Shown here in pieces: positions 9,478-35,504 of a stretch of DNA of 36,384 bases; within the stretch, counting starts at the first letter, position 1; each line of letters starts with the position of its first letter. Below the pieces are notes generated by a model. The model saw only the letters and a list, made by a program, of their open reading frames with translations, did not search any database and had not been told where the DNA came from. Source of the stretch: Comamonadaceae bacterium. GTDB lineage: Bacteria; Pseudomonadota; Gammaproteobacteria; Burkholderiales; Burkholderiaceae_C. Location: the NCBI GenBank assembly GCA_027485285.1, contig JAIXRH010000009.1, positions 1 to 36,384 of the forward strand, in the 5' to 3' direction. Made by a program: the position numbers and the translations under genes.

Positions 9478-9519
9478 ACCTAGGGGCTTTCAATGAGAGT
9501 ACGTCTGTCTAGGAAGCGC

Positions 9520-9548
9520 ATGCTAAACATCGATTGCCTCAGTCGCAA
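9520..9548 (-). promoter_or_regulatory. Candidate sigma-70 promoter of the liv operon
   Basis: On the minus strand TTGCGA (9543-9548) and TAGCAT (9520-9525) are separated by 17 bases. Each matches four of six consensus positions. They would start a transcript near 9513, about 36 bases before the livG start codon. This is the best pair I see between livG and the secF terminator. Confidence 0.3.
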
Positions 9549-9623
9549 AGGGGTAAACCCGTTTTGAAGTCACATGCAAGACAAATCAAGCACCACCGGC
9601 AAGGAACGCTGTCACGCAGAGGT

Positions 9624-9652
9624 AAAAAAGCCGGTTCGCAAACCGGCTTTTC
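9624..9652 (-). terminator. Intrinsic terminator of the yajC-secD-secF operon
   Basis: A 7-bp GC-rich stem GCCGGTT (9630-9636) and AACCGGC (9641-9647) with a 4-base loop. On the minus strand it is followed by six T (the A run at 9624-9629), 19 bases past the secF stop. This is a standard rho-independent terminator. The plus strand also carries four T after the stem. Confidence 0.85.
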
Positions 9653-9670
9653 CTTGCAAGACATGGGGGC

Positions 9671-10624: not shown

Positions 10625-10636
10625 CGTGATTCCTCT

Positions 10637-12490: not shown

Positions 12491-12510
12491 GGTCGCTTCG
12501 TCGTTTGATC

Positions 12511-12840
12511 TTAGATAGAGCCTTTGGGCAGCACTTGCACCACGGCTTGGCGTTGCAATTGCACTTCCACGCCCGCAGAGATTTCAATGGTCACGGTGGC
12601 ATCCGCCAAGGCAGTCACCTTGCCGAGCAAGCCGCCGGCTGTGGCAATTTCGTCGCCTTTGGCGATGGCTTCGATCATGGCTTTGTGTTCTTTTTGACGC
12701 TTCATCTGGGGACGAATCATCACGAAATACAAGACCACAAACATCAGCACCAAAGGCAACATGCCTTGCAGAGAAGACATCATGTCATTGCCTGCGGCAG
12801 CGGCAGGAGCGGTTTGGGCAAAAGCAGAAGAAATCAACAC
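12511..12840 (-). CDS. yajC: Preprotein translocase subunit YajC
   Basis: A 109-residue single-span inner membrane protein that associates with SecDF. The hydrophobic helix GMLPLVLMFVVLYFVMIRP lies near residues 26-44, followed by QMKRQKEHKAMIEAIAKGDEI and the GG(L)LGKV turn that mark the family. I choose the GTG at 12840 because it has a GGAG ribosome site about nine bases upstream and gives the usual YajC length. The open frame extends to 12897, but those extra residues are unlike the family. It is the first gene of yajC-secD-secF. Confidence 0.93.
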   Translation of the reverse strand: MLISSAFAQTAPAAAAGNDMMSSLQGMLPLVLMFVVLYFVMIRPQMKRQKEHKAMIEAIAKGDEIATAGGLLGKVTALADATVTIEISAGVEVQLQRQAVVQVLPKGSI

Positions 12841-12927
12841 GGTCAGACTCCAAATTGAGGGACTGCTGCCAGGGTACAAAACGCCCCAGCAGGCCAACCG
12901 CGAATTGTATGCGGCTGATTTGTCACC

Positions 12928-15900: not shown

Positions 15901-16488
15901 CAAACCCAAATCTAAGATTTCTTGCACGTTGCTGGGAAAGAACACCGGCGTGCCGCAGGCTTTGAAGATGTGGTCACTTTGGTGAACCGCTGTCGAGCTT
16001 TTGGCCACGTGGTCGTCACCCGCAATGGCCAGCACGCCGCCCCAGGGCGTGGTGCCCGCCATGTTGGCGTGCTTGAACACGTCCGAGCAACGGTCCACCC
16101 CCGGGCCTTTGCCATACCAAATGCCAAACACGCCATCAAACTTGTTGCTGCCAGGCGGTGCAAAGCCCAACTGCTGGGTGCCCCACAGTGCAGTGGCGGC
16201 CAGCTCTTCATTCACACCGGGTTGGAAGACGATGTTTTGCGCTTCTAGGTAAGGCTTGGCTTTCCACAGCGATTGGTCATACGTGCCCAAGGGTGAGCCG
16301 CGATAGCCGCTGATAAAGCCGGCGGTGTTTTTGCCTTGCAGGGCATCGCGTTGGCGCTGCAGCATGGGCAGCTTGACCAGCGCTTGCACGCCGCTCATGA
16401 AGGCGCGGCCCACATCGAGGCTGTATTTGTCGTCCAGCGTCACGGTGTCGAGTGCGCGGCGAATGTGCTCGGGCAGGGGGGCGTTCAT
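12928..16488 (-). CDS. Indolepyruvate ferredoxin oxidoreductase, fused subunits
   Basis: A 1186-residue cytosolic enzyme that decarboxylates aryl or branched 2-oxoacids to acyl-CoA and passes electrons to ferredoxin. The N-terminal pyrimidine-binding part has GFISGYRGSPLGTYDQ near residue 57. The thiamine-diphosphate-binding half has CSGCPHNTSTQVPEG near residue 475 and GDGTYFHSG near 535. A cysteine cluster near residues 668-720 (CEGCGDCG, then C-N-K and C-V-K-G-F-C-P-S) would bind Fe-S. The gamma-type domain starts at GVGGTGVITIGQLLG near residue 757. The C-terminal part is the extra domain common to the fused proteobacterial form. It stands alone between yajC and mltA; function in 2-oxoacid or aromatic amino acid breakdown is known of the family, not shown here. 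Confidence 0.92.
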   Translation of the reverse strand: MNAPLPEHIRRALDTVTLDDKYSLDVGRAFMSGVQALVKLPMLQRQRDALQGKNTAGFISGYRGSPLGTYDQSLWKAKPYLEAQNIVFQPGVNEELAATALWGTQQLGFAPPGSNKFDGVFGIWYGKGPGVDRCSDVFKHANMAGTTPWGGVLAIAGDDHVAKSSTAVHQSDHIFKACGTPVFFPSNVQEILDLGLHAIAMSRFSGVWSGMKTIQEIVESSSTAVIDPQRVNIVIPEFDMPEGGLHIRWPDTALAQEARLFDYKWYAALAYVRANRLNHNVIESANDRLGLIASGKAFNDTRQALFDLGLDDATCRRLGIRLHKVAVVWPLDAQLTREFATGLQEILVIEEKRQVIEYQLKEELYNWRADVRPNVLGKFNEMDDDGKQGPFGGGGGEWSMPNPSANTLLRANADLNPALIAKAIAQRVLKLGVDADTTARINAHLAIITAKEQAMTAVTLKADRLPWFCSGCPHNTSTQVPEGSRAMAGIGCHFMVLWMDRDTHGFTQMGGEGVPWVGQQPFVNDSHIFANLGDGTYFHSGILAIRQSIAAGVNITYKLLYNDAVAMTGGQRIGERPEGHSVLQIAQSMKAEGAQRITVVTDEPEKYEGAGLVDGVAVFHRDELDRIQREMREIKGCTVIIYDQTCATEKRRRRKRGTLADPATRVLINELVCEGCGDCGVQSNCMSVEPLETEFGRKRTINQSTCNKDISCVKGFCPSFVTVEGGQLKKKAKGVSRIDLPALALPQPTLPDTTQAWGMVVAGVGGTGVITIGQLLGMAAHIEGKGIVTQDAAGLAQKGGSTWSHVLIANHPDDIRTTRVGIAAADLIIGCDPIVVAGKETLQRMHAGRTHVALNAHSAPTAAFVRNANWQNPGDECMAAIVQAVGAEGVGTLDADRVATQVLGDSIFVNPMILGFAWQRGWVPLGLEALMRAMELNGMAVAQNKVAFEWGRHCAAHGDAVQALLAPAQVVQFHKPDGIDALVAKRVAFLTDYQSAAYANGYRAVVARVRSAEAALHKTTLTEAVARNLFKLMAYKDEYEVARLHTDSAFLQKISGMFEGDYTLNYHLAPPLVAKTNEKGELQKQKFGPLMRTCFKLLKHLKVLRGSAWDVFGYTEERRTERELIQQYTDSLDMVIAKLDTSNHALALELARIPEQIKGFGHVKARHLAAARLKWEALKLQWSAQH

Positions 16489-16575
16489 GGGTAGCTCCTA
16501 AATCAGCGGCTTTGCGTTTTGAGTTTAGGACGAGATGTCACCCGAATGATGAACGTGCGTGACATGAAGCATGTT

Positions 16576-17775
16576 TTACTTGGGCCACAAGACCCACAAA
16601 CGCAAGCCTTGCTTCATGCGGCCCGCATAGTCTCCCGCCTCAGGGCCTGTGCCCGCAAAGTAATCGGCCCTCACCGCGCCCACGATGGCGCTGCCAGTGT
16701 CTTGCGCAAACACCAAGCGCTGCAAGAGGCCATTGGGCCCCGCGCTGGTGAGCCAGACCGGCGTGCCATAGGGGATGGAATCTTTGTCCACCGCAATCGA
16801 TCGGCCTGGCGTGAGCGGCACACCTTGCGCGCCTCGGGGGCCTAGGTCGGCATCGGCGGGGCTGCGCGTTTCTTCGCGGAAGAACACATAGCGCGGGTTG
16901 CTCCACAACATGTCTTGCACCAAACGCGGGTTGGTTTGTTGCGTGCTGACAATCCACGCCTTGATGCCTTGCCATGACGCATCTTTGATCAAGCCACGGT
17001 CCAGCAGCCAACGGCCCACACTTTGATAAGGCTGTTCGTTCGAGCCCGCAAAGGCCAAGCGCACCACCCGTGTGCTGCCGTCTGGGTTGGCCATGCGCAC
17101 ACGGCCCGAGCCTTGGATGTGCAAGACCAAGGCATCGATCGGGTCCGCGAGCCAAGCCACTTCACGGCCGCGCAGGGCATCACGCGCTTGGGGTTGGCTG
17201 TCGATCTCTTGGCGGCTGAACCACGGTCGGCCAGCGCGACGCGCCTCGGCCAAGCCCTCGGGCGGTGCATACAAAGGCACCTCAAAGCCGGGGCGCATTT
17301 GCGCCGAGGCATCAAACAAAGGCTCGTAATAGCTGGTCAGCAAGCCATCCGTCGCACCGTCGAGCGACTCGACGCGGTAGGGCTGCAAGCGGCTCATCAT
17401 CCACACACGGCGGTCGTCGTCGCTGCCCAGCATGAGCTGGCGCACGTCTTGGCACAGCGGCGCAAACAAGGGGCCAGGGCGCACGCAGTTTTGCAACCAC
17501 GCGTTCCATGCATCTTGCAAGGGGTCGTTTTGCCAATCGGGCACCTCGCTCCAAGACGTCGCCACCCAACGGCTGCGGTAGCTTTGTTGGGGCGTCGGTG
17601 TGCCCGGCATGCCCGCCAAACTGCCGGTGGCGCGTGGCAAATCCGCAGGCGCGCGTGGTGCGGGCGGGGCTGAAGGGCGACCCTGGTCGATCACGGGCGC
17701 TTGGCGTGATGTGCCGCACGCCACCAAGCTTCCTACAATCAGGACACCTGTCAAACGCCAAAGGATGTGTCTCAT
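16576..17775 (-). CDS. mltA: Membrane-bound lytic murein transglycosylase A
   Basis: A 399-residue outer membrane lipoprotein that cleaves peptidoglycan glycan strands to 1,6-anhydro products. I start it at ATG 17775, which gives a textbook lipoprotein signal: MRHILWRL, a hydrophobic core, and the lipobox LVAC with Cys20. The MltA domain spans about residues 115-290 (LTSYYEPLFDAS, VAWLADPIDALVLHIQGSGRVRM). The C-terminal 3D domain holds AQDTGSAIVGAVRADYFAG near residues 355-373, including the Asp expected in catalysis. Its start codon shares CATG with a divergent small gene on the plus strand, so the two cannot have separate promoters between them. A signal-less longer start at 17919 was discarded. 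Confidence 0.93.
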   Translation of the reverse strand: MRHILWRLTGVLIVGSLVACGTSRQAPVIDQGRPSAPPAPRAPADLPRATGSLAGMPGTPTPQQSYRSRWVATSWSEVPDWQNDPLQDAWNAWLQNCVRPGPLFAPLCQDVRQLMLGSDDDRRVWMMSRLQPYRVESLDGATDGLLTSYYEPLFDASAQMRPGFEVPLYAPPEGLAEARRAGRPWFSRQEIDSQPQARDALRGREVAWLADPIDALVLHIQGSGRVRMANPDGSTRVVRLAFAGSNEQPYQSVGRWLLDRGLIKDASWQGIKAWIVSTQQTNPRLVQDMLWSNPRYVFFREETRSPADADLGPRGAQGVPLTPGRSIAVDKDSIPYGTPVWLTSAGPNGLLQRLVFAQDTGSAIVGAVRADYFAGTGPEAGDYAGRMKQGLRLWVLWPK

Positions 17776-17914
17776 GTTGCTAATTTTGCTAGAAGCGCTG
17801 GGCGCTGGTTGCATCTTGGTGTTGATCGTCTGGTGGACCATGTTTTCAGGCCGCGCAGAGACTGAGGCTGAGCACGAAGCAGCGCAAAAAGAGGCCGCCA
17901 AAGAAGACAAGTGA
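17774..17914 (+). CDS. Small single-span membrane protein
   Basis: A 46-residue peptide with one strongly hydrophobic helix, MLLILLEALGAGCILVLIVW (residues 1-20), then WTMFSGR and a highly charged tail rich in Glu, Ala and Lys. This layout suggests an inner membrane anchor with the tail in the cytoplasm. AAAGGA lies 8 bases before ATG 17774, a good ribosome site; a start at 17765 would leave no spacing. I recall similar short hypothetical proteins in Comamonadaceae but no function. The gene opens from the same CATG as mltA on the other strand and stops one base before the convergent response-regulator gene. Confidence 0.6.
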   Translation: MLLILLEALGAGCILVLIVWWTMFSGRAETEAEHEAAQKEAAKEDK

Positions 17915-17915
17915 C

Positions 17916-18551
17916 TCACTCGCCGCGCAACAAGTTGGCCAGCTCCACGGCTGACTTGACATTCATCTTGTCAAACACGCGCGCGCGGTGCACCTCCACC
18001 GTGCGCACGCTGATGTCAAGCTGGTCTGCGATGAGTTTGTTGGGCAGGCCCTCGACCACCAAATACATGACATCGCGTTCGCGTTCGGTGAGGTCGGCCA
18101 AGTTGTGCTGCAAGCTTTGTTTGTTGCGCAGGACTTGCAAGGTTTGCGCGGAGCGCGCCAGGGCTTGTTCGATGCGGTCCACCAGCGCGTTGTCAGAAAA
18201 CGGCTTTTCACAAAAGTCAAACGCCCCCCGCTTGACCGAGTCCACCGCCGTCGGCACGTCGGCATGGCCCGTGAGAAAGATCACGGGCAGGGCATCCAGC
18301 AATTCGCGCTCGATGAGTTGCTCAAACAAGGCCAGTCCGCTCATGCCTGGCATGCGCACGTCAAGCAACAAGCAGCCGGGTTGGCTGGGCTGCCAGGCCA
18401 AACTGGTGGGGTTCAAAAACTCAGCAAACGCATCGGCGCTTTCAAACGATTGACTGGGCAAGCGACGTGAACGCAACAACCACGCCAAGGCCTCACGCAC
18501 ACCCGCGTCGTCGTCAACAATAAAAACCAAAGCGTCTTGTGTGGGTTGCAT
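17916..18551 (-). CDS. FixJ/DctR-like two-component response regulator
   Basis: A 211-residue cytosolic transcription regulator. The receiver domain (about residues 5-122) has the acidic cluster VDDD at 12-15, the phosphoacceptor Asp64 in LLLDVRMPGMSG, Thr94 in FLTGHADVPTAV and Lys116 in CEKPF. The C-terminal LuxR-type helix-turn-helix (about residues 150-208) carries LTERERDVMYLVVEGLPNKLIADQL and SVRTVEVHRARVFDKM. It starts 14 bases after the kinase gene stop and surely works with it. Size and layout match DctR of the DctS/DctR pair as well as FixJ and TtrR. Without transporter or nitrate genes nearby, the target regulon cannot be named. Confidence 0.9.
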   Translation of the reverse strand: MQPTQDALVFIVDDDAGVREALAWLLRSRRLPSQSFESADAFAEFLNPTSLAWQPSQPGCLLLDVRMPGMSGLALFEQLIERELLDALPVIFLTGHADVPTAVDSVKRGAFDFCEKPFSDNALVDRIEQALARSAQTLQVLRNKQSLQHNLADLTERERDVMYLVVEGLPNKLIADQLDISVRTVEVHRARVFDKMNVKSAVELANLLRGE

Positions 18552-18565
18552 GTGTCAGGCCTGAT

Positions 18566-20554
18566 TCACGATTGTGGCAGGGTAAAACTGAACACCATGC
18601 CTCGCGGAAGATTGGGCTCAAAGCGCAAGAGGCCTCCGTGCTGCTCCACCACGGTGCGGCACAAACTCAGGCCCAAACCCATGCCCTCTTGCTTGGTGGT
18701 GAAGAAGGGGGTGAAGAGTTGATCGGCCACGCCCTGCGCAATGCCGTGGCCTAAGTCGGCCACCACAAACTCCAACCAACGGCTGCTGGCGTGGGCGGCT
18801 GCGGGGCGCACCGCCAAGGTCAACACTTTGTTGGGCGTGTCGTCGGCCATGGCTTGCATGCCGTTGCGCGTGAGGTTCAACAACACCTGCTCCACCATGG
18901 TGCGATCACACAAAACAGCGGGCAAATCCGCTGGGCAGTTGACCACCACACGCACACCCAATTTGCGGGCTTGCAGAATCACCAAGGGCATCACATGGTC
19001 CAACAGCGCGCGCGGGGTAACGGCTTCGCGCGCTTGGTCGCGGCGGCGCACAAAGTCGTGCACGCTTTTGATCACCCTGCCGGCACGCTCGGCCTGTTGG
19101 CCAATGCGCTGAATGGCGCTGCTCAAGGTCTCGGCCAGTTGCGGGTCTTGCAGTGCCGCGTCTTTGAGCAAGTTCATGCTGCCAGTGGCGTAGCTCGAAA
19201 TGGCGGCCAAGGGTTGGTTGAGCTCATGGCTCAAGAGCGAGGCCATTTCGCCCACCGTGGCCAAACGCGCCGTGGCTTGCAAACGCTCTTGGCTGGCACG
19301 CGACACCTCTTCGACGCGGCGTTGCTCGCTCACATCCAAGACGGCCCCCATCCAACCGGTTTGTTCGCCCATGGCGTTGATGAGGGGGGCTTCAAAAATC
19401 ATCACTGGAAAGCGCTCACCGCTCTTGCGCATGAACACCGATTCAGCGCCTTCACGTGGCGGCGCATTGCCAGCCAACCGCAGGGCTTGACGTTGACCGT
19501 ATTCGTCCACCATCTCTGGCGGCCAATAGGGCGCAGGCAGGCCTTGGCCAATCAACTCATGGGCCTCAAATCCCACCATTTCACAAAACGCGGGGTTGAC
19601 ATAGGTAATGCGGCCTTCGCTGTCACGCGCACGCAGGCCGGTGACGAGTGAGTCCTCCATCGCTTTGCGAAAAGCCAGGGCATCGGCCAGGTCCAGCTCC
19701 ACGCGTTGGCGGCGGCGCATGTCACGCGCCAGCATCACCAACACGGTGACCAACGCAATCGCCATGGCCATGACCAAGGCGGTCAAGACGTTGGGAAACA
19801 CATCGGGCGCACCGTGCCAGCTGTCCATGCGCAACACCATGGTGTGGCCGGGCAAATCCAACAACTGTTTGGCAATGAAGACGCGCGTGCCTCGGCTCGC
19901 CGTGCCGTGCATGGCCAAGCGTGTGCCATCGGATTCGGTGAACGACACCTCTTGGCTGCGGGTGAGTTGCGGGCCCACCATGTTGACCAACACTTCGCTC
20001 AAGGAATACGTGGCCACGGTGTAGCCTGTCAACACGCCGTCGTTGATGACTGGCAGGCACAAATCCATGATTTCCAAACCCAAGCCATCGGCTTGCGGCA
20101 CAAAGGCACTGGCCCCGTAGCCGGGGCCGCTTTGGCGGCGAGCCACGGTGCAGGCTTGCACCACTTCGGGCTGCGTGGCGGAGCGTCCCAAGCGATTGAA
20201 GGGCGGCGCACGAAAGGGGGTGTCCACACTGCTGACCACACGCAAATCGATGTCGCGCAGCTCCAAGCGCAACCACTCCCGGTGCTCACGCAGCATCTTG
20301 CTGGCTTCTTGCGTCCAAGGCACGGTGGCATGGTCGGCGTATTGCAAGGCCTGCAAAGTTTGCACATTGCGGGTCAGGGCCGTGCGAATGTCGCTGACGG
20401 CATCCGCAGCATCGCGCTCGATTTGGCTTTGCACCTGTGTCACTTCATAGCGGCCCGCCAGCCACACCAAGGTGCTGAGCATGGACAACACCAAAAGGAC
20501 CAACGCCGCCCACAAAAGTCGGCGGCGGCTGCGAGGCGCAAGAGAAAAAAACAT
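18566..20554 (-). CDS. PAS-domain sensor histidine kinase (DctS/FixL type)
   Basis: A 662-residue inner membrane sensor kinase. TM1 is near residues 13-34, a periplasmic sensor domain spans about 35-254, and TM2 is near 255-277. A PAS domain follows at about 295-412 (GRITYVNPAFCEMVGF). The HisKA H-box is LATVGEMASLLSHELNQPLAAI with phosphoacceptor His443. The ATPase domain has EQVLLNLTRNGMQAM, DLGHGI and TPFFTTKQEGMGLGLSLC. It phosphorylates the regulator encoded 14 bases downstream. I start it at ATG 20554, which overlaps the yhdP stop codon as ATGA; the frame extends to 20587 inside yhdP. The architecture matches DctS (dicarboxylate sensing) but the ligand is unknown. Confidence 0.9.
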   Translation of the reverse strand: MFFSLAPRSRRRLLWAALVLLVLSMLSTLVWLAGRYEVTQVQSQIERDAADAVSDIRTALTRNVQTLQALQYADHATVPWTQEASKMLREHREWLRLELRDIDLRVVSSVDTPFRAPPFNRLGRSATQPEVVQACTVARRQSGPGYGASAFVPQADGLGLEIMDLCLPVINDGVLTGYTVATYSLSEVLVNMVGPQLTRSQEVSFTESDGTRLAMHGTASRGTRVFIAKQLLDLPGHTMVLRMDSWHGAPDVFPNVLTALVMAMAIALVTVLVMLARDMRRRQRVELDLADALAFRKAMEDSLVTGLRARDSEGRITYVNPAFCEMVGFEAHELIGQGLPAPYWPPEMVDEYGQRQALRLAGNAPPREGAESVFMRKSGERFPVMIFEAPLINAMGEQTGWMGAVLDVSEQRRVEEVSRASQERLQATARLATVGEMASLLSHELNQPLAAISSYATGSMNLLKDAALQDPQLAETLSSAIQRIGQQAERAGRVIKSVHDFVRRRDQAREAVTPRALLDHVMPLVILQARKLGVRVVVNCPADLPAVLCDRTMVEQVLLNLTRNGMQAMADDTPNKVLTLAVRPAAAHASSRWLEFVVADLGHGIAQGVADQLFTPFFTTKQEGMGLGLSLCRTVVEQHGGLLRFEPNLPRGMVFSFTLPQS

Positions 20555-27415: not shown

Positions 27416-27919
27416 TCAGCCTTGACGAATCTTCTTCACCAGCGCCGTGGTGGAGTAACCCTCGACAAACGGAATGGCTTGGGCGCGGCCACCGTAGCCC
27501 AGCACCACCTGCGTCTCCGCCAGCTGGCTCATGTCGTAATCACCGCCTTTGACCAACACATCGGGCCGCAGCTCGGTGATGAGCGCGAGCGGTGTGTCTT
27601 CGTCAAACCACGTCACCAAGCTGACCGACTCTAAAGCGGCCATCAAGGCCGCACGGTCCATCTCGTTGTTGAGGGGGCGGTCTGGGCCCTTGCCCAAGCG
27701 GCGTGCGGAGGCATCGCTGTTCAGGGCCACCACCAAACTGCCACCCAGGCTGCGGGCTTGCGCCAAATACGAGGCATGGCCACGGTGCAACACATCAAAC
27801 ACGCCATTGGTAAACACCACGGGGCCCAGCGCACGCAAGCCAGCCATGCATTGCACCGCGTCTTGGCGCGAGGCCAGTTTGGACAGAAAGACAGGGGGCA
27901 GCAGGGTGGTATCGGTCAT
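27416..27919 (-). CDS. rfaE2: D-glycero-beta-D-manno-heptose 1-phosphate adenylyltransferase
   Basis: A 167-residue cytosolic nucleotidyltransferase that makes ADP-heptose precursor for the lipopolysaccharide inner core. The cytidylyltransferase fold is evident from VVFTNGVFDVLHRGHASYL near residues 34-52 with the HxGH motif, ALNSDASARRLGKGPDRP near 65-82, and the late DVLVKGGDYD near 128-137. It corresponds to the C-terminal half of bifunctional HldE; here the kinase half is not fused and not nearby, as in many betaproteobacteria. It lies 35 bases downstream of the litR-like gene on the same strand and may share its transcript. Confidence 0.93.
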   Translation of the reverse strand: MTDTTLLPPVFLSKLASRQDAVQCMAGLRALGPVVFTNGVFDVLHRGHASYLAQARSLGGSLVVALNSDASARRLGKGPDRPLNNEMDRAALMAALESVSLVTWFDEDTPLALITELRPDVLVKGGDYDMSQLAETQVVLGYGGRAQAIPFVEGYSTTALVKKIRQG

Positions 27920-27954: not shown

Positions 27955-28941
27955 TCAGGCCAGCAAGCCTGGCGCTGGCGGGTTGGCCACTGGTTTGGGT
28001 GAGCGGCGGTGTTGGCTGACAGCGTCTGAAATGGCTGCCAGATCGTGCAACACCCTCACGCCCTCGATGTGCCGCCGACGCAACGCAGGCGCGCTGCCAC
28101 CGGCCCAGATGGCCACCTCATTTGGCAACAGGGCTTTCAACTCGGCCAAGCCATCCACCACATGGTTGGGGTTCATGTTGGCGCTGAAGCTCAACGCCAC
28201 CACCTCCACCTTATGGGCCGCTGCCGCTTGTGCAATGTCGCGCACTGGGGTTTGGGTTCCTAAAGAGAGGCAGCGGCAGCCCTGCAAAGCCAACACACTT
28301 TCAACCATCAGCAAACCCAAACCATGGGCCTCTTGCGGAAAGGTCGTCAACAGCACTTTGGGTCCTGCACCCTGCGCCACTCTTGGAATGGCCGAGATGG
28401 CTTGGCGCATCAAGGTGCCCACACACTCGGTGTACAGGTGCTCTTGGTGCACCGCCAAATCGCCTTGGGCCCAAAACTCCCCCACCCAATGGGTGAGAGG
28501 CGACACCACTTCCGTCACAAAACCTTGCAAGCCAAGCGTTGACAAGGCTTGGTGCAAGGCCACACGAATGCCCTCGTCATCTTGTGACTGCAACAGGGTC
28601 AGGTAGCGCTGCAACTCGGCGGGCACTTGCTTCGCTGTTATCACTTGGGTGGGGTGTGCCGCCTGCACACCAGCCGCGCCTCGGCTCAGTTGCTGCAACA
28701 CCGCCAGGGGTTGTGACACCACACGCCCTGGGCGGTGGCCTTGGTCCATCAACCGTTTGATGACGCGCAGCTGTTCGACCTGCGCCATGGGGTAAGTGCG
28801 CTCGTCGTTGGCATCACGCCCGGGTGTGGGGAAACCATAGCGGCGCTCCCACACGCGCAAGGTGTCTTTGCCAATGCCTGTGTCGCGTTCGACGGCTGCA
28901 ATTGACAGCGTCATGTGTGCGTGTTCTTCACGTGAGTTCAT
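27955..28941 (-). CDS. litR: MerR-family B12-binding light-responsive regulator (LitR/CarH type)
   Basis: A 328-residue DNA-binding regulator. The MerR-type helix-turn-helix (about residues 11-80) has the hallmark LRVWERRYGFPTP. A helical region and a cobalamin-binding Rossmann region (about 195-308) follow. Two signatures of adenosylcobalamin photoreceptors are intact: W157-x9-E167-H168, which caps the upper face of B12, and E204-x-H206-x-x-G209, which supplies the lower axial His. Known CarH/LitR proteins repress as tetramers in the dark and release DNA when light breaks the Co-C bond. It is divergent from the gpx-flavoprotein-cfa operon across about 100 bp. A shorter start at 28914 is possible. 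Light control is inferred from the motifs, not proven. Confidence 0.85.
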   Translation of the reverse strand: MNSREEHAHMTLSIAAVERDTGIGKDTLRVWERRYGFPTPGRDANDERTYPMAQVEQLRVIKRLMDQGHRPGRVVSQPLAVLQQLSRGAAGVQAAHPTQVITAKQVPAELQRYLTLLQSQDDEGIRVALHQALSTLGLQGFVTEVVSPLTHWVGEFWAQGDLAVHQEHLYTECVGTLMRQAISAIPRVAQGAGPKVLLTTFPQEAHGLGLLMVESVLALQGCRCLSLGTQTPVRDIAQAAAAHKVEVVALSFSANMNPNHVVDGLAELKALLPNEVAIWAGGSAPALRRRHIEGVRVLHDLAAISDAVSQHRRSPKPVANPPAPGLLA

Positions 28942-28960
28942 TGATAGGAATCCCCGTCAT

Positions 28961-29000
28961 TGATCGTGGAGAATGTTTCCGTCCAAGACAGTTTGTCTGG
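28961..29000. promoter_or_regulatory. Candidate operator and promoter between litR and the lipid-oxidation operon
   Basis: The intergenic region holds an inverted repeat AGACA-GTT-TGTCT (28986-28998), flanked by CC and GG and offset by one base. Just upstream, TGATCG (28961-28966), a 17-base spacer and CAAGAC (28984-28989) resemble the TGATC...TAAGA pattern I recall for RpoE-ChrR type promoters. A start near 28996 would leave room for the AGAAGGG ribosome site (29028-29034). Both are pattern readings only. Confidence 0.35.
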
Positions 29001-29044
29001 AGTTTGACATGATCGACCTGCTTCTAAAGAAGGGCTTTCCCGTG

Positions 29045-29641
29045 ATGTACCGTTTCGTATTCGTTTTGTTCGGCTTGTTTTTGGGGCTTGGCTCCGCACA
29101 CAGTGCAACAGAAAGCGCCGCCACTTCGGCCAATTGCCCACGCGTGTTGCAACACACGGTGGCGCGTCTGCAAGATGAAAAACCACAAGCGCTTTGCCAA
29201 TACGCCGGCCAAGTGGTGGTGGTGGTCAACACCGCTAGTTTTTGCGGCTTCACGCCGCAGTACAAAGGCTTGGAAGCCTTGCACGCCAAATACAAAGACC
29301 GTGGCTTGGTGGTGTTGGGCTTTCCCAGCAACGACTTCTCCCAAGAGCCCGACAGCAACGCCAAGATTGCCGACTTTTGCGACAACACCTTTGGCGTGAA
29401 GTTCCCCATGTTTGTGAAAACCACGGTGCGTGGGTCGGAGGCATCGCCCTTGTTCAAGCAACTGGCAGAACAAACTGGCACAGCGCCGAAGTGGAATTTT
29501 TACAAATACATCATCAGCCGCGACGGCAAAGCCATCAAGAGCTTCAGCAGCATGACCGGCCCCCAAGACAAGAGTTTTGTGCAAGAGATTGAAAAGCAAT
29601 TGGCAGACAAACAGATGCCTACCAAAGGCGCTGCGCTATGA
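29045..29641 (+). CDS. Exported glutathione peroxidase-like protein
   Basis: A 198-residue thiol peroxidase that should reduce lipid or organic peroxides in the periplasm. A Sec signal peptide is clear (MYRFVFVLFGLFLGLGSAHS-A), which with AGAAGGG at 29028-29034 selects ATG 29045 over upstream in-frame starts. The core shows the peroxidatic Cys67 in NTASFCGFT and Trp150-Asn151 in WNFYKY. The usual Gln of the catalytic tetrad (FPCNQF in the family) is Asp97 here (FPSNDF). Cys111 may serve as a resolving partner. It is the first gene of the operon facing litR, and its stop overlaps the next start (ATGA). With its neighbours it fits removal of peroxidised fatty acids. Confidence 0.88.
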   Translation: MYRFVFVLFGLFLGLGSAHSATESAATSANCPRVLQHTVARLQDEKPQALCQYAGQVVVVVNTASFCGFTPQYKGLEALHAKYKDRGLVVLGFPSNDFSQEPDSNAKIADFCDNTFGVKFPMFVKTTVRGSEASPLFKQLAEQTGTAPKWNFYKYIISRDGKAIKSFSSMTGPQDKSFVQEIEKQLADKQMPTKGAAL

Positions 29642-30930
29642 AGCCACGCATCGCCATTGTGGGCTCGGGCATTTCGGGCCTGTCTGCCGCGCACCATTTG
29701 CACGGCAAGGCCGAGGTCACCTTGTTTGAGGCGGGTGACTATTTTGGCGGCCACACCCACACGGTAGATGTGACCTTGCCCACCGCCACAGGCCTACAGA
29801 CGCACGGCGTGGACACCGGTTTTTTGGTTTACAACGAGCGAACATACCCTGGCTTGATTGCTTTGTTTGAAGCCTTGCACGTGACCACCGCCAAGTCGGA
29901 CATGTCGTTTTCAGTGCAAGTGCCCCACAAAAACGGCAAAAGCGCTTTGGAATGGAACGGCGCCAACCTCAACACCGTGTTTGCCCAGCGCCGCAATTTG
30001 TTCAAGCCCAGCTTTTTGCGCATGTTGCGTGATGTGGTGCGCTTCAACACCCTCGCCACCGAGTTGGCCGAGCGCAACCAAGACGAGGAGCTGGCACAAC
30101 CTTTGAGCGGCTTTTTGTTCTCGCACAAGTTCAGCGACGTGTTTCGCGATTGGTATTTGTTGCCCATGCTCGGCTGCATTTGGAGTTGCCCCACCGACCA
30201 AATGCTGAAGTTTCCTGTGGCCACCATGATTCGGTTTTGCCACAACCACGGCCTGATCCAAGTCAACAACCGGCCACAGTGGTACACGGTGGCTGGCGGC
30301 GCACGCCACTACGTCGAGAAGATTTTGGCAAACGTGCCAGACCAACGTTTGAACACGCCGGTGCTGCGCATCGCGCGCGACGCCCACAGCGTGACACTGC
30401 AAACACACCAAGGCTCTGAACGGTTTGACCAAGTGATTTTGGCCACCCACGCCGACCAATCGCTGGCCATGTTGGCCGAACCCACGGCTCAAGAACACGC
30501 CACCTTGAGCGCCATTCGCTACCACCCCAACCGCGCCGTGCTGCACACCGACACGTCGGTGATGCCCCAGAAAAAGCTCGCTTGGGCCGCGTGGAACTAC
30601 GAACGTGCCGCGCACAGCAACACCGAGTCGGCCCGTGTGTGCTTGCACTACTGGCTCAACCTGTTGCAACCGCTGCCGTTCACGCAAAACGTGATCGTCT
30701 CGCTCAACCCCTTGCACGAGATTGACCCCGCACACATCCTGGGCGAATACGACTACGCCCACCCCGTGTTTGACTTGGCCGCCATCCAAGCCCAAACCCA
30801 AATGCCACAACTCCAAGGCCAGCACCACACCTGGTTTGCCGGTGCGTGGATGGGCTACGGTTTTCATGAAGACGGTTTCAAGGCTGGGCGCAACGCCGCC
30901 CAAAGCCTGCTCGCCAGCTTGGCCCAATGA
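29638..30930 (+). CDS. FAD-dependent amine oxidase-like protein
   Basis: A 430-residue flavoprotein. The N-terminal Rossmann fold opens RIAIVGSGISGLSAAHHL (G9-x-G11-x-x-G14), followed by Glu32 in FEAGDYFGGHTHTV, the ribose-binding Glu and the GG of the amine-oxidase superfamily. Near the C-terminus FAGAWMGYGFHEDGFKAGRNAA is the typical FAD-closing motif. Members of this group are usually annotated as amine oxidase or NAD/FAD-dependent oxidoreductase and are found beside DUF1365 and cyclopropane-synthase-like genes. They are likely fatty-acyl oxidoreductases rather than true amine oxidases. It overlaps gpx upstream and the DUF1365 gene downstream by 4 bases each. The substrate is not known. 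Confidence 0.88.
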   Translation: MKPRIAIVGSGISGLSAAHHLHGKAEVTLFEAGDYFGGHTHTVDVTLPTATGLQTHGVDTGFLVYNERTYPGLIALFEALHVTTAKSDMSFSVQVPHKNGKSALEWNGANLNTVFAQRRNLFKPSFLRMLRDVVRFNTLATELAERNQDEELAQPLSGFLFSHKFSDVFRDWYLLPMLGCIWSCPTDQMLKFPVATMIRFCHNHGLIQVNNRPQWYTVAGGARHYVEKILANVPDQRLNTPVLRIARDAHSVTLQTHQGSERFDQVILATHADQSLAMLAEPTAQEHATLSAIRYHPNRAVLHTDTSVMPQKKLAWAAWNYERAAHSNTESARVCLHYWLNLLQPLPFTQNVIVSLNPLHEIDPAHILGEYDYAHPVFDLAAIQAQTQMPQLQGQHHTWFAGAWMGYGFHEDGFKAGRNAAQSLLASLAQ

Positions 30931-31691
30931 ACCCCATGACGCAAGCCATGATTGGTTTTGGGCAAGTGCGCCACACGCGATTGCGGCCCACGCCGCACGC
31001 GTTCCACTACAGCACTTTCTTTTTGATGCTGCCCATGCGCACACTGCAGACCACTGGCGATGCAGCGCTGCCCATCAACCGCGCGGGGGCCATCAGCTTT
31101 CATGATGTCGACCACGGCGATGGCCGCAGCACGCAAGACGGTGGCGCACTCGGATGGCTAGACGAGGTGCTGCACCAACACGGCATCGATGACGCCACGG
31201 GCGAAGTCTGGCTGCACTGCTACCCGCGCGTGCTGGGCTACACCTTCAAGCCCGTGAGCTTTTGGTATTGCCACGCCGCAGACCACACACTGCGAGCCAT
31301 CGTGGTGGAGGTGAACAACACCTTTGGTGAGCGCCATTGCTATTTGTTAGACCGCCCGCAGTTCGGCGTGGAGCAACGCGCCAGCAAGGTGTTTCATGTG
31401 TCACCGTTTTGTGCGGTGCAGGGCGACTACCGCTTTCGCTTCATGCGCACAGCAGACCACACCGTCGCCCGTGTGGACCACGACGATGCGAACGGCCCCT
31501 TGATTGAAACCAGCGTGAGCGGCCAACTCAAGCCCATCACCCCCGCCGAGTTGCGCCACGCTTTGTGGGGTTACCCACTGATGACTTTGATGGTGATGGC
31601 GCGCATCCATTGGCAAGCCTTGAAGCTGTGGCTCAAGCGCGTGCCGTTTTTTTCCAAACCCGCACCTCCGCAAGATTTTGTGACCCGTTGA
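30927..31691 (+). CDS. DUF1365 family protein
   Basis: A 254-residue protein of the DUF1365 family. It shows the family opening GFGQVRHTRLRPTPHAFHYSTFFLMLPM (about residues 10-37), YPRVLGYTFKPVSFWYCH near 100-117, VVEVNNTFGERHCYLL near 124-139, KVFHVSPFC near 150 and the C-terminal ARIHWQALKLWLKRVPFF. No catalytic motif is established for the family. It always seems to travel with the flavoprotein and cyclopropane-synthase-like genes, which suggests a role in the same fatty acid modification. The ATGA overlap with the preceding gene implies coupled translation; a second ATG at 30936 is possible. Confidence 0.88.
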   Translation: MNPMTQAMIGFGQVRHTRLRPTPHAFHYSTFFLMLPMRTLQTTGDAALPINRAGAISFHDVDHGDGRSTQDGGALGWLDEVLHQHGIDDATGEVWLHCYPRVLGYTFKPVSFWYCHAADHTLRAIVVEVNNTFGERHCYLLDRPQFGVEQRASKVFHVSPFCAVQGDYRFRFMRTADHTVARVDHDDANGPLIETSVSGQLKPITPAELRHALWGYPLMTLMVMARIHWQALKLWLKRVPFFSKPAPPQDFVTR

Positions 31692-31706
31692 TGTTGAGAC
31701 CTGCCC

Positions 31707-32936
31707 ATGAATAGCACCACCTCCACCCGCTCCACCCAAGCAGAGCCCATGCCCGCAGCCGCACGCCGCGTGCTGAGCCTGCTGCAACGCTTGCAACACG
31801 GCACGCTGCATGTGCAGTGGCCCGATGGCCGCGTGGAGCAATTTGGTTCAGCGCCCGCGTCGGGCAAGTCGCTCAACGCCACCTTGCATTTGCACAGCTA
31901 CGCGCCACTCACACAAGCGCTGAAGTCGGGCGACATTGGTTTTGCCGAAAGCTACATCGCGGGTGAATGGACCACCAACAATTTGTCTGAGCTGCTTCAA
32001 CTCTTGCTGGCCAACCGCCGCGACATGGACGCGCTGATTTTTGGCAGCTGGCTGGGCCGCTTGTATTACCGCGTGCGCCACCTGTTGCATCGCAACACGC
32101 GCAGCAACAGCAAGAAAAACATCCACGCGCATTACGACTTGGGCAACGCGTTTTACGAGCTGTGGCTAGACCCCACGATGAACTACTCATCGGCTTGGTT
32201 TGACAACGACCGATCCAAACCCATGGCCGAAGCGCAAACCGCCAAAGTACGCCGCGCCCTGCGCATGGTGGACGCCAAAGCGGGTGACCGCATTCTTGAA
32301 ATCGGCTGCGGCTGGGGCGCTTTGGCCGAACTGGGCGGCACAGAGTTTGGCGCACACATGAACGGCGTGACCCTGAGCCACGAACAGCTGGCCTTTGCCA
32401 ACCAGCGCATGCAGCGCTTGGGTTTGGAGAGCACCAGCAACCTGCGCTTGCAAGATTACCGCGACATTGACGATGGCCCGTATGACGCCATTTGCTCCAT
32501 CGAAATGTTGGAAGCTGTGGGCCAAGAATATTGGGCCACATATTTTGAGAGCGTGGCGCGCTTGCTCAAATCCGGCGGCAAAGCGTGCATTCAAACCATC
32601 GTCATTGATGACGCGCTGTTTGACCGCTATGTGAAGAGCACCGACTTCATTCAGCAATACATCTTCCCCGGCGGCTGCTTGCCTTGCCCGCGAGAATTCC
32701 GTGCGCACGCCGAACGCGCAGGCTTGAACGTGGTGGACGAGTTGGCCTTTGGTTTGGACTACGCCGAAACGCTGCGCCGCTGGCGTCACCAATTCATGGC
32801 CGACAAGACGCAGGTGTTGCAGCTGGGCTTTGACGAGCGCTTCATGCGCATTTGGGAGTTCTACTTGGCTTACTGCGAAGCCGCATTTGATCAGCACAGC
32901 ACCGACGTGGTGCAGTTCACCTTGGTCAAACCATGA
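31707..32936 (+). CDS. Cyclopropane-fatty-acid-synthase-like methyltransferase
   Basis: A 409-residue S-adenosylmethionine-dependent enzyme that would transfer a methyl or methylene group to unsaturated acyl chains of membrane phospholipids. The N-terminal lipid-binding region runs to about residue 125. The catalytic part begins HYDLGNAFYELWLDPTMNYSSAWF (142-165), with the SAM loop ILEIGCGWG at 196-204 and SIEMLEAVG near 265. The C-terminal FPGGCLPCPREF and the RRWRHQF region follow. The WLDPTMNYS form differs slightly from the classical Cfa DPxMxYSCAYF in lacking the Cys. It could make cyclopropane acids or, like related proteins linked to singlet-oxygen response, a methylated furan-acid precursor. 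It overlaps the next gene by 4 bases. Confidence 0.9.
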   Translation: MNSTTSTRSTQAEPMPAAARRVLSLLQRLQHGTLHVQWPDGRVEQFGSAPASGKSLNATLHLHSYAPLTQALKSGDIGFAESYIAGEWTTNNLSELLQLLLANRRDMDALIFGSWLGRLYYRVRHLLHRNTRSNSKKNIHAHYDLGNAFYELWLDPTMNYSSAWFDNDRSKPMAEAQTAKVRRALRMVDAKAGDRILEIGCGWGALAELGGTEFGAHMNGVTLSHEQLAFANQRMQRLGLESTSNLRLQDYRDIDDGPYDAICSIEMLEAVGQEYWATYFESVARLLKSGGKACIQTIVIDDALFDRYVKSTDFIQQYIFPGGCLPCPREFRAHAERAGLNVVDELAFGLDYAETLRRWRHQFMADKTQVLQLGFDERFMRIWEFYLAYCEAAFDQHSTDVVQFTLVKP

Positions 32937-33517
32937 CCACACGCCGCGCTGCTTTGACCCTCGGCTTGCGCACGGCCTTGGCAGGCGTGAGCGTTTGGCC
33001 CATTGGCCTGGCGCAGGCCGACGTCAACCGCGAGCCCCCTCAGCCCAGGCCCGCTTTGCAAGCCGCGTTGCGCACACCGCGCTTGGTGGGCCAACACCGC
33101 TTCACCTACTGGGGCTTTGAGGTGTACGACGCCAGCCTGTGGGCGAGCGCCCCGTTTGCTGCACTGGATTGGGCCAAGCAAATGTTGGTGCTTGAGCTGC
33201 GCTATTTGCGCGACTTCAAGGGCGCAGACATTGCGCAACGCTCCATCGACGAGATGCAAGGCCAACGCCCGCTGAGCGCTGCCCAACTGCAAAGCTGGTC
33301 GGCCACGCTGCAAGCCCTCATCCCCAATGTGCGGGCGGGTGAACAAATCACCGGCATTTACACACCAGACAAAGGCATGCAGCTGTTGCACCAAGACCGC
33401 GTGTTGGGCGAGTTGCGCGACACCGAATTGGCCCAACGGTTTTTAGGCATTTGGCTGGCCACCGAAACTTCGCAACGCAAACTCCGCCAAAGCCTCTTGG
33501 CTGGCGCTCAGCCATGA
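32933..33517 (+). CDS. Exported chalcone isomerase-like protein
   Basis: A 194-residue protein with a predicted signal peptide of Tat-like form: TTRRAAL at residues 2-8, a hydrophobic stretch, and an AQA site near residue 29. The mature domain has HRFTYWGFEVYDASLWA near residues 57-73, LELRYLRDFKGADIAQRSIDEM near 83-104 and GELRDTELAQRFLGIWLA near 162-179. These are typical of bacterial chalcone-isomerase-like (Chalcone_3) proteins. Plant relatives include fatty-acid-binding proteins, so lipid binding is a reasonable guess here. The start overlaps the methyltransferase stop by 4 bases; a 68-bp gap then separates it from the dehydrogenase gene. Confidence 0.82.
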   Translation: MTTRRAALTLGLRTALAGVSVWPIGLAQADVNREPPQPRPALQAALRTPRLVGQHRFTYWGFEVYDASLWASAPFAALDWAKQMLVLELRYLRDFKGADIAQRSIDEMQGQRPLSAAQLQSWSATLQALIPNVRAGEQITGIYTPDKGMQLLHQDRVLGELRDTELAQRFLGIWLATETSQRKLRQSLLAGAQP

Positions 33518-33585
33518 AGCGCGTTTGTAGGGGCCTTGGTGAATGGTATGGTGAAGCCTGATCAAGTTCGCACGGGGTTTTTGAT

Positions 33586-34368
33586 ATGCACTTTTTAAAA
33601 CCATTCAACCCACCCATCGCCGATTGGCACGGCCGCAGCGTGTGGCTGATTGGGGCCTCCAGCGGCATTGGGTTGGCCACGGCCAAAGCCCTGCACGCCG
33701 CTGGTGCACGTGTGGTGGTGTCGGCCCGCAAAGCCGAGTTGCTGCAACAGTTTGTAGACACGCATCCCGGCGCACAAGCCGTGGTGATGGATGTGAGCGA
33801 TGCCGCCGCCATTGCCGAAGCCGCCAAGTACGTGCAAACGCATCAGGGCTTGGATGTGGTGATGTACTGCGCGGGCTACTACCAAGCCATGCGAGCGAGC
33901 GACTATTCACTGCTTGAAATGCAGCGCCACCTCGACATCAACTACACCGGCGCTCTGCGTGTGTTGGATGCCGTGATGCCCACCCTCATTGCCAATGGCG
34001 TGGGTCACCTCAGCTTCATCTCCAGCGTGGCTGGCTTTCGTGGCTTGCCACAGAGCTTGGCGTATGGCCCCACCAAAGCCGCCCTCATCAACTTGGCGGA
34101 GGCCTTGTATTACGATTTGACGCCGCACGGCGTGGGTGTGAGCTTGATCAACCCTGGCTTTGTGGAAACACCCTTGGTCGCAGGCAATGACTTTCCCATG
34201 CCGGCCCTCATCTCGCCTGAGACGGCGGCGACTGAAATCCTCAAGGGTTGGCGCAAAGGGGACTTTCACATCCACTTTCCCAAGCGTTTCACGCGTGTGT
34301 TGCTTCTCCTTCGCTTGCTGCCCTACCGTTGGTACTTTGCCTTGGTGCGCGGTGGGACGGGCATGTGA
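33586..34368 (+). CDS. Short-chain dehydrogenase/reductase
   Basis: A 260-residue cytosolic NAD(P)-dependent oxidoreductase. The cofactor loop GASSGIG lies at residues 23-29, the CAG of the NAG position at 95-97, and the catalytic Ser147, Tyr160 and Lys164 in SSVAG and YGPTK are all present. The basic residues after the second strand (SARKAE) suggest NADPH use. A hydrophobic C-terminal stretch (RVLLLLRLLPYRWYFALV) may associate with membrane. It sits in the lipid-oxidation operon and shares one base with the following gene (TGATG). The natural substrate is unknown, perhaps an oxidised fatty acyl chain. Confidence 0.88.
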   Translation: MHFLKPFNPPIADWHGRSVWLIGASSGIGLATAKALHAAGARVVVSARKAELLQQFVDTHPGAQAVVMDVSDAAAIAEAAKYVQTHQGLDVVMYCAGYYQAMRASDYSLLEMQRHLDINYTGALRVLDAVMPTLIANGVGHLSFISSVAGFRGLPQSLAYGPTKAALINLAEALYYDLTPHGVGVSLINPGFVETPLVAGNDFPMPALISPETAATEILKGWRKGDFHIHFPKRFTRVLLLLRLLPYRWYFALVRGGTGM

Positions 34369-34817
34369 TGACAGACACACCCGAAGCCGCCCTGCAGCGT
34401 GTCGTGCATTTCTTTGAGCAGTTGCAGCCTGCGGATGTCTCGCGCATGGCCGAGATCTACACCCCCGATGCGCAATTCAAAGACCCATTCAACGCGGTGC
34501 AGGGCTTGCCCGCGATTGAACAGATCTTTGCCCACATGTTTGAAGCGCTACAAGCGCCACGCTTTGTGATCACCACCCAAGTGCTGCAAGGGTCACAGTG
34601 TTTTGTGACGTGGGATTTTTTATTTGCCATGCCGCGCATGGACAGCGGCCAAACCCAAACCATTCGCGGGGCCACCCACTTTGTGCTGCGTGAAGAGGCC
34701 GGGCTGTGGCGCGTGGCCGTGCACCGCGATTATTGGGATGCGGCGGAAGAGTTGTACGAGAAGCTGCCCGTCGTGGGCAGTTTGATGCGCTGGCTGAAAA
34801 AACGCGCCAACAGTTGA
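34368..34817 (+). CDS. NTF2-like/SnoaL family protein
   Basis: A 149-residue small alpha-beta barrel protein. The opening ALQRVVHFFEQLQPADVSRMAEIYTPDAQFKDPFNAVQG (about residues 7-45) and the later ATHFVLREEAGLWRVAVHRDYWDAAEELY are characteristic of the nuclear transport factor 2-like fold used by SnoaL and ketosteroid isomerase. The start at 34368 overlaps the dehydrogenase stop by one base. It is the last gene of the operon before the palindromic terminator. These proteins bind small hydrophobic ligands or catalyse isomerisation, but no specific activity can be assigned. Confidence 0.85.
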   Translation: MTDTPEAALQRVVHFFEQLQPADVSRMAEIYTPDAQFKDPFNAVQGLPAIEQIFAHMFEALQAPRFVITTQVLQGSQCFVTWDFLFAMPRMDSGQTQTIRGATHFVLREEAGLWRVAVHRDYWDAAEELYEKLPVVGSLMRWLKKRANS

Positions 34818-34840
34818 GCCTGCTTTTGTTGGCTGCACCC

Positions 34841-34875
34841 ATGAAAAAAGCCCTTCAGTGAAGGGCTTTTTTCAT
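34841..34875. terminator. Bidirectional palindromic terminator
   Basis: A 17-bp perfect inverted repeat centred on a single G: the left arm starts ATGAAAAAAGCCC at 34841 and the right arm ends GGGCTTTTTTCAT at 34875. Six T follow the GC stem on each strand, so it can end both the plus-strand operon (stop 34817) and the minus-strand glutathione transferase gene (stop at 34890). Confidence 0.9.
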
Positions 34876-34889
34876 CTGACAGGCTGGCC

Positions 34890-35504
34890 TTATTCAGGCA
34901 GCGTGTCTTTGAAGCTTGGGCGCTGAGACAAGCGTTCGTACAAACCGCCCAGGTTGGGGTGTTGGCCACGCCAATCGATGGCGGGGAAACGGAAATCCAA
35001 ATAACTCACCGCCACGCCAACCGCAATGTCGGCCAAGCTGACTTGGATGCCCACGCAGTGGCTGCGCTCGGCCAAGGCTTGGTCCAGGGCCATCAAGCTG
35101 TCGTCAATTTTTTTCATTTGACGGTCAATCCATGCTTGGCTACGTTCGCCTTTCTTGCGACCAGGCCATGACGCTTCGAGGCGGGCCAAAATGGCGGCGT
35201 CCAACAAGCCATCGGCCAGGGCTTCCCAAGTTTTGACTTCGGCGCGCTCGCGGCCGCTGCCGGGAATCAGCTTGCCCACAGGCGACAAAGTGTCCACGTA
35301 TTCGACGATGACGCGCGAATCAAACAGTGCTTCGCCGCCCTCCATGATGAGGCAAGGCACTTTGCCCAACGGGTTGGAAGCTGAGATGCTGGTGTCTGCT
35401 GCCCACACGTCTTCGGTCACAAACTGATAGTCCAGTTTTTTTTCGGCCATGACGATGCGAACTTTGCGCACATAGGGGCTGGTGATTGAACCAATCAGTT
35501 TCAT
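34890..35504 (-). CDS. Glutathione S-transferase (YibF-like)
   Basis: A 204-residue cytosolic glutathione transferase-like protein. The N-terminal thioredoxin-like domain opens MKLIGSITSPYVRKVRIVMAEK, with Ser9/Pro10 in the glutathione site, cis-Pro in GKVPCLIM near residue 50, and the ALFDSRVIVEYVD block near 59-71. The helical C-terminal domain has the N-capping SLADIAVGVAVSYLDFR near 155-171. Length and motifs resemble YibF. It is divergent from purB across 83 bp and shares the bidirectional terminator with the lipid-oxidation operon. A link with peroxide detoxification by its neighbours is possible but only by position. Confidence 0.9.
   Translation of the reverse strand: MKLIGSITSPYVRKVRIVMAEKKLDYQFVTEDVWAADTSISASNPLGKVPCLIMEGGEALFDSRVIVEYVDTLSPVGKLIPGSGRERAEVKTWEALADGLLDAAILARLEASWPGRKKGERSQAWIDRQMKKIDDSLMALDQALAERSHCVGIQVSLADIAVGVAVSYLDFRFPAIDWRGQHPNLGGLYERLSQRPSFKDTLPE

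Follow-up and report, generated by a model that had tools for sequence, protein, structure and literature searches.

Light-responsive regulators of the class I LitR/CarH type, among them T. thermophilus CarH and B. megaterium LitR, combine a MerR helix-turn-helix (HTH) with four-helix and B12-binding domains, and are described in the part of PMC9758184 drawn on here as acting mainly in carotenoid production. Furan fatty acids have been proposed to act as antioxidants and signals, and control of their synthesis has been described through ChrR or LOV systems. Excerpts of published work report that in Rhodobacter UfaD, UfaO and UfaM suffice to make furan fatty acids, and that losing ChrR raises the pathway in R. 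sphaeroides. Light control of ufaM is already known in Pseudomonas, where a class II LitR and a LOV protein are involved: in the portion of PMC9758184 concerned, PplR/PmlR is a MerR-type repressor at a light-induced cluster of FAD oxidoreductase, short-chain dehydrogenase/reductase (SDR), ufaM and photolyase genes, is B12-independent and acts through a short LOV partner. A related comparison case is that of V. cholerae ChrR and MerR, as far as an extract of PMC5241685 describes it. No paper connecting CarH to furan fatty acids came up in our literature search. Here we describe a locus in a 36,384-nucleotide stretch from a Comamonadaceae bacterium (GenBank assembly GCA_027485285.1, contig JAIXRH010000009.1, positions 1 to 36,384; hereafter the window) in which a regulator gene, apparently of the class I type, faces a set of furan-pathway homologs.

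The regulator gene (27955-28941, minus strand) is divergent from seven plus-strand genes (29045-34817). We put at roughly 0.7 the probability that a regulator loaded with adenosylcobalamin (AdoB12) represses this predicted furan operon in the dark and that light releases it. The regulator carries the Pfam domains MerR_1, B12-binding_2 and B12-binding (2.5e-11 for the last), and thus has both B12-binding domains beside the MerR HTH, as class I proteins do; the C-terminal B12 domain that is lost from class II LitR is retained. Its best sequence match in the PDB was T. thermophilus CarH/LitR (5c8d, 5.9e-26). When its AlphaFold model (pLDDT 90.6, pTM 0.72), which has the CarH fold, was used in a Foldseek search, the first twelve rows were all T. 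thermophilus CarH. The cobalamin domain chains of CarH fit the model with a TMt of about 0.8 and root-mean-square deviations mostly of 2.7-3.2 Å, while identity to full-length CarH chains in this search was 25-28%. These results support assignment of the regulator to the AdoB12-dependent, class I LitR/CarH kind.

Two AdoB12 photoreceptor motifs recognized in the first-pass annotation, W157-x9-E167-H168 and E204-x-H206-x-x-G209, proved to be correctly positioned and conserved in relatives, and they align with T. thermophilus CarH. The SignatureFinder light signature around adenosylcobalamin is given in an excerpt of PMC11796333 as GxxW, EH, GxxH and GxxxP. The window regulator reads GEFW, EH and GTQTP at three of these elements and QEAH at GxxH, with the axial His present; it shares W-x9-EH, ExHxxG and GxxxP with class I proteins, which also resemble it in its proposed role as a dark repressor. 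Nine residues (G154, W157, E167, H168, E204, H206, G209, G228 and P232) are all intact in the window regulator, and 72 of 77 regulators retain every one of them; these 77 are those of 76 loci from the same family and the window's own, with gene starts chosen by rule and not on evidence. A second scan of 80 loci, which overlaps the first set and is not independent of it, found all nine in 79. In the first set W157 and H168 are lost from three regulators (L087, L103 and L074), and two others (L061, L108) have single changes outside the W/EH core. The three regulators without W157 and H168 are 313-333 residues long; L074 has gpx and SDR genes present and no ufaD-ufaO-ufaM.

Opposite the regulator, the enzymes annotated as an FAD enzyme, a DUF1365 protein and a Cfa-like methylase are, judged by sequence, better called UfaD, UfaO and UfaM homologs. 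They are an FAD desaturase-like protein (29638-30930, plus strand; Pfam Amino_oxidase/NAD_binding_8), a DUF1365 protein that is a putative furan-forming oxygenase (30927-31691, plus strand; DUF1365 1.1e-80) and an S-adenosylmethionine methylase of the CMAS family (31707-32936, plus strand; CMAS 1.4e-82). Side by side, these are the same three enzyme families as in the Rhodobacter/Rhodopseudomonas furan pathway, as described in part of PMC7380195. Passages of the literature describe UfaD as having an NAD-FAD-binding domain and link UfaO to DUF1365 (PMC10940516, PMC7380195); those of PMC10940516 also report an Arabidopsis DUF1365 protein resembling UfaO (26% identity) and a cyclopropane-synthase-type protein resembling UfaM and UfaD. 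In its own genome the window ufaM stands alone as a full-length CMAS-family match, alongside three partial ones. A search with the AlphaFold model of UfaO (pLDDT 91, pTM 0.89) gave no fold match at E<=0.001, the weak hits being lipocalin/nitrobindin/fatty-acid-binding-like barrels (best E 0.0086), and a UfaO profile gave nothing convincing against PDB sequences (best E 0.074). Across 32 UfaO sequences H16, H63 and H137 do not vary and could possibly form a metal or haem site for oxygenase chemistry.

The pairing of regulator and ufa genes extends well beyond the window. At a general threshold of E<=0.001, 116 of 200 family genomes had regulator matches, and 82 of these were strong (E below 1e-37). 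Among the 76 family loci fetched, the regulator was divergent from ufa genes in 61, with gpx first in 35 of them (counted by eye from the listing). The second scan was limited to the closest regulators and therefore favours this pattern; in 71 of its 80 loci the sequence ran on for 2.5 kb or more past the regulator, and 69 of these 71 face ufa genes, 41 with gpx. Its titled records include Polynucleobacter, Rubrivivax, Polaromonas, Thiomonas, Curvibacter, Methylibium and one Limnohabitans metagenome-assembled genome (MAG), the nearest titled regulator being that of a Comamonadaceae MAG (72%). The loci retrieved also cover the cultured relatives Rubrivivax gelatinosus IM 151 (L160), Curvibacter delicatus NBRC 14919 (L180) and Methylibium sp. 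Root1272 (L168). DUF1365 was present in 75 of the 82 family genomes with a strong regulator match, versus 79 of the 118 others (p 3e-5, kinship uncorrected), and lay within 6 kb of the regulator in 65 of the 82. Outside the family, signature-positive regulators were found near ufa genes in 3 of 57 loci (L270, L281, L299), and six of nine aligned MerR neighbours of ufa genes had no B12 signature. Synteny, together with the operator counts below, thus places the pairing above chance, in agreement with the initial observation that the regulator faces the operon. For five ufa operons from the same family or the same order (L266, L267, L268, L269, L271), the fetched stretch held neither a recognised LitR-type regulator nor an operator with at most one mismatch.

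The intergenic stretches between regulator and operon share a palindrome, TTTGTC-N3-GACAAA. With at most one mismatch in its 12 defined positions, this operator was present upstream of the regulator in 50 of 74 regions (the window included; 3 of the 77 were dropped as shorter than 200 nt); control windows had it in 2 of 1378 cases, and the second scan yielded it in 44 of 78 regions. When sites with up to three mismatches were counted, 25 of 46 pairs had a spacing of 62-64 nt, or roughly six turns of the helix; the 5109 control windows held 15 pairs, one of them so spaced. Both genes were present in 61 of the 76 loci, 59 of them with a signature-positive regulator. Within 280 nt upstream of the operon, a site with at most one mismatch was found in 39 of these 59 and in none of 12 family operons that lack a strong regulator match (Fisher p 2e-5, relatedness uncorrected); the 12 controls were hand-chosen from 79 such genomes, some with weak HTH-only matches. 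In these sequences the predicted operator tracks the regulator. In L087 and L103, which retain the ufa operon opposite a regulator without W157 and H168, the operator is absent too (5 mismatches each). In L265-L267, family loci where the regulator is absent, the best match in the fetched stretch was no better than 3 mismatches. Outside the family, L270 and L281, where the regulator is present, have a site better than this; the best match in L299, unlike these two, has 2 mismatches, although its regulator is also present.

The geometry of the sites suggests an overlap with the promoter. Pooling the two overlapping locus sets gave 122 regions with a site, 92 of them with a scorable promoter; in counts made with no control, the -35 of the best sigma-70-like promoter lay inside the operator (offset 7) in 26 of the 92 and at 17-18 nt from the operator start in 25. 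The paired sites in the window's relatives recall the two promoter binding sites of Pseudomonas PplR/PmlR, whose operator differs in sequence (T(G/A)TACA-N12-TGTA(C/T)A; both from the same portion of PMC9758184). Of 120 family genomes, 24 contained the exact pattern, at 31 places in all, versus 1 place for a reversed control. By their coordinates, 13 of the 31 were upstream of the regulator, 1 fell within it (G010), 1 lay about 1.2 kb past its end (G038) and 16 were elsewhere. Three of these 16 (L238, L239 and L244, at 4075, 4032 and 836) are perfect palindromes that lie, as read by eye, upstream of a presumed iscR and downstream of a presumed uvrB. The regulator in the L238 genome has no signature, and therefore another factor may use the iscR-side sites.

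In the window itself, the offset and motif statistics among relatives point to a degenerate copy of the operator, TCCGTCCAAGACAGT, at 28978-28992. It keeps the core GTC-N3-GAC and lies at offset 39 from the regulator start, the same or nearly the same place as in close relatives, whose sites at or near the matching place have 3 (L134), 2 (L135), 0 (L136), 0 (L140), 1 (L184), 4 (L035), 2 (L036) and 3 (L137) mismatches; L188 has a 4-mismatch match only, at a different place. A search of the window's own genome found only two places that fit TTGTCNNNGACAA. The putative operon promoter read from the sequence, AAGACA-N17-CATGAT (28985-29013, plus strand), has its -35 inside the right half of the operator and is weak, with 8 of 12 consensus bases; a promoter scan reported none within the window.

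Several observations weigh against a light-switched regulator at this locus. Full-length superposition on CarH is poor (TMq 0.42-0.53); in the Foldseek comparison of the AlphaFold model the individual domains fit CarH and their relative placing differs. The NCBIfam CarH equivalog model scored 120.3 bits against a cut-off of 400, which denies that the regulator is an equivalog in the sense of that model but not that it belongs to the wider class. The signature element GxxH is QxxH in the window regulator, a departure from class I proteins, although position 203 is also non-Gly in 45 of the 77 regulators (G in 32, Q in 24). The pairing has exceptions in both directions: no ufa genes lie opposite the regulator in 15 of the 76 fetched loci, some of them at a contig edge, 7 of the 82 regulator-positive family genomes have no DUF1365, and 79 of 154 DUF1365-positive family genomes have no strong regulator match, so the operon does not need the regulator. 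No site with at most one mismatch was found in the tested 280 nt at 20 of the 59 signature-positive, ufa-facing loci, seven of which (L039, L054, L056, L064, L068, L069 and L073) have a site with at most two mismatches nearer the regulator. In the window the operator is single and mismatched at 4 of 12 positions, no copy of TTTGTCYWRGACAAA occurs anywhere in the genome, and the regulator diverges fast, with 59-70% identity to four near relatives versus 85-92% for UfaD/UfaM. Because the window's operator is degenerate, the switch in this strain may be weak.

The divergence of the regulator and the poor operator would also be expected if the switch were decaying in the window lineage, with B12 binding perhaps kept, the operator weak and the operon largely constitutive, a state that would suit a phototroph always facing light and O2. 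The window and L035 operators have 4 mismatches each where the more distant L136 and L140 have none, and the loss of W157 and H168 from L087, L103 and L074, accompanied in the first two by loss of the operator, is in keeping with such decay. We nevertheless regard it as rather unlikely, since in the window, as in L035 and L134, the site has stayed in place and its GTC-N3-GAC core is unchanged, all nine signature residues remain in the window regulator, and its ratio of nonsynonymous to synonymous substitution rates is 0.12-0.23, indicating that it is still under purifying selection. That the regulator responds to B12 supply or redox state instead of light appears improbable. B12-binding domains have other uses in many proteins and position 203 differs from the Gly of the light signature, but the W and EH elements of that signature (as excerpted from PMC11796333) align with CarH and are kept in all but three of the 77 regulators, and the neighbouring genes belong to photo-oxidative stress regulons elsewhere.

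As to the product, the first-pass annotation had left the choice between cyclopropane and furan. We see only a slim chance that the operon makes a cyclopropane or other modified acyl chain and not a furan. The CMAS protein does match the cyclopropane synthase model NF053839 (282.6 bits, below the cut-off of 600), but its UfaD- and UfaO-like neighbours serve steps that follow methylation. DUF1365 was found in 94 of 299 Pseudomonadota genomes surveyed, and at 60 ufaO loci fetched (57 outside the family and 3 from family members without a strong regulator match) a UfaD-like match lay beside ufaO in all 60 and a UfaM-like match within about 7 kb in 55. Because UfaD and UfaO homologs are present, a furan ranks above a cyclopropane: the furan half of the original alternative agrees with the three core genes, and a cyclopropane-only product was set below it as less fitting.

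Under the light-switch reading that we prefer, AdoB12-loaded regulator would bind a TTTGTC-N3-GACAAA-type operator over the operon -35 in the dark and keep the operon off; light would break the Co-C bond, the regulator would leave the DNA and the operon would be expressed. UfaM would then methylate an unsaturated acyl chain (in the known case cis-vaccenate) of a phospholipid in the membrane, UfaD would make the methylated diene and UfaO would close the furan ring with O2, yielding a furan fatty acid that may scavenge reactive oxygen in the membrane. An exported Gpx would reduce peroxides, perhaps lipid hydroperoxides, and the SDR, SnoaL and chalcone-like proteins would be accessory.

All eight open reading frames were confirmed at the positions and with the domain families first assigned to them. 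The genes besides those discussed above, all on the plus strand, encode a glutathione-peroxidase-like protein (gpx, 29045-29641; Pfam GSHPx 7e-31), a chalcone-isomerase-like protein (32933-33517; Chalcone_3 3.5e-11), an SDR (33586-34368; adh_short 4.9e-39) and a SnoaL/NTF2-like protein (34368-34817; SnoaL_2 4.9e-16). With its start taken as the ATG at 29045, Gpx has an N-terminal stretch that looks, by eye, like a signal peptide. Shewanella PgpD, in the part of PMC4336711 describing it, is an exported periplasmic Gpx whose oxidative stress regulon includes phrB and cfa; it differs in being RpoE2-dependent and encoded in an operon with hemH2, outside the cfa operon. The genes had been described as mostly coupled, which holds for four overlapping pairs (4 nt at gpx/ufaD, ufaD/ufaO and ufaM/chalcone-like; 1 nt, TGATG, at SDR/SnoaL); gaps of 15 nt between ufaO and ufaM and of 68 nt between the chalcone-like and SDR genes mean that coupling along the operon is not continuous. 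Folding bore out the single terminator at the operon end, a 16-bp hairpin with a U tract at 34841-34875 (-22.3 kcal/mol for 34838-34878, z -6.2 versus shuffled sequences), which was not among the listings of a simple terminator scan of the window. It possibly serves the convergent glutathione S-transferase gene (34890-35504, minus strand; Pfam) as well. On the other side, a cytidylyltransferase-like gene (27416-27919, minus strand; Pfam) flanks the regulator.

The host genome (2.35 Mb, 132 contigs, 98% complete) has a gene for a PduO-type cobalamin adenosyltransferase, with none of the CobA type, and a B12-domain open reading frame of 942 residues taken as MetH. One of its contigs carries what looks like a photosynthesis cluster, made up of bch genes and genes for a PpsR-like protein and for two B12-binding proteins; the designations bch, ppsR and aerR were assigned from sequence, with Pfam support for a nitrogenase-type subunit and for PAS/HTH_8 and B12-binding domains. 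Bacteriochlorophyll made in air would yield singlet oxygen, which fits the proposed protective role of the operon. In this cluster (L095, own contig C51:1-20000), bchH, bchB, bchN, the ppsR-like gene and two B12-binding aerR-like genes lie at 8679-19339, and a palindrome, TTGTCATAGACAA, at 18363 between the ppsR-like and second B12 genes could be another regulator site. The absence of ChrR from the window, noted earlier, extends genome-wide, with 0 matches to Cupin_7 (PF12973; sigma factors were not searched); control by ChrR was rejected on this ground, and the host thus differs from R. sphaeroides. The description of the locus as a compact version of a stress regulon is only half right, holding for ChrR, with photolyase genes and a second MerR gene present on other contigs: a MerR gene without a Pfam B12 domain, followed by a photolyase and a DPRP-type photolyase-related gene, occupies 2219-12849 of L327 (own contig C62:8500-24000), and a further photolyase is in L328 (C128).

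The locus is a real, conserved module, and the light switch first proposed for it stands as a sequence-based prediction, now narrowed to furan fatty acids and supported by a predicted operator. The apparently new element is that the complete furan pathway would be under direct B12-type control, and this in a host that also has bacteriochlorophyll genes. We lean towards the view that UfaD-UfaO-UfaM has been wired, by lineage, to three unrelated sensors: ChrR for singlet oxygen, LOV with class II LitR for blue light and, in Burkholderiales, a B12 photoreceptor acting through its own operator. On this view furan fatty acids would be made in anticipation, as a response to light, including where the host carries bacteriochlorophyll genes, and a few lineages would have lost the operator along with the photosensor. 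The operator, with its pairs often 63 nt apart, would be usable for regulon prediction and optogenetics, and the natural regulators without photosensor residues would serve as a comparison set. If this is true, the timing of furan fatty acid synthesis could be tested with green light in Burkholderiales, and CarH-type sensors would gain a target other than carotenoids.

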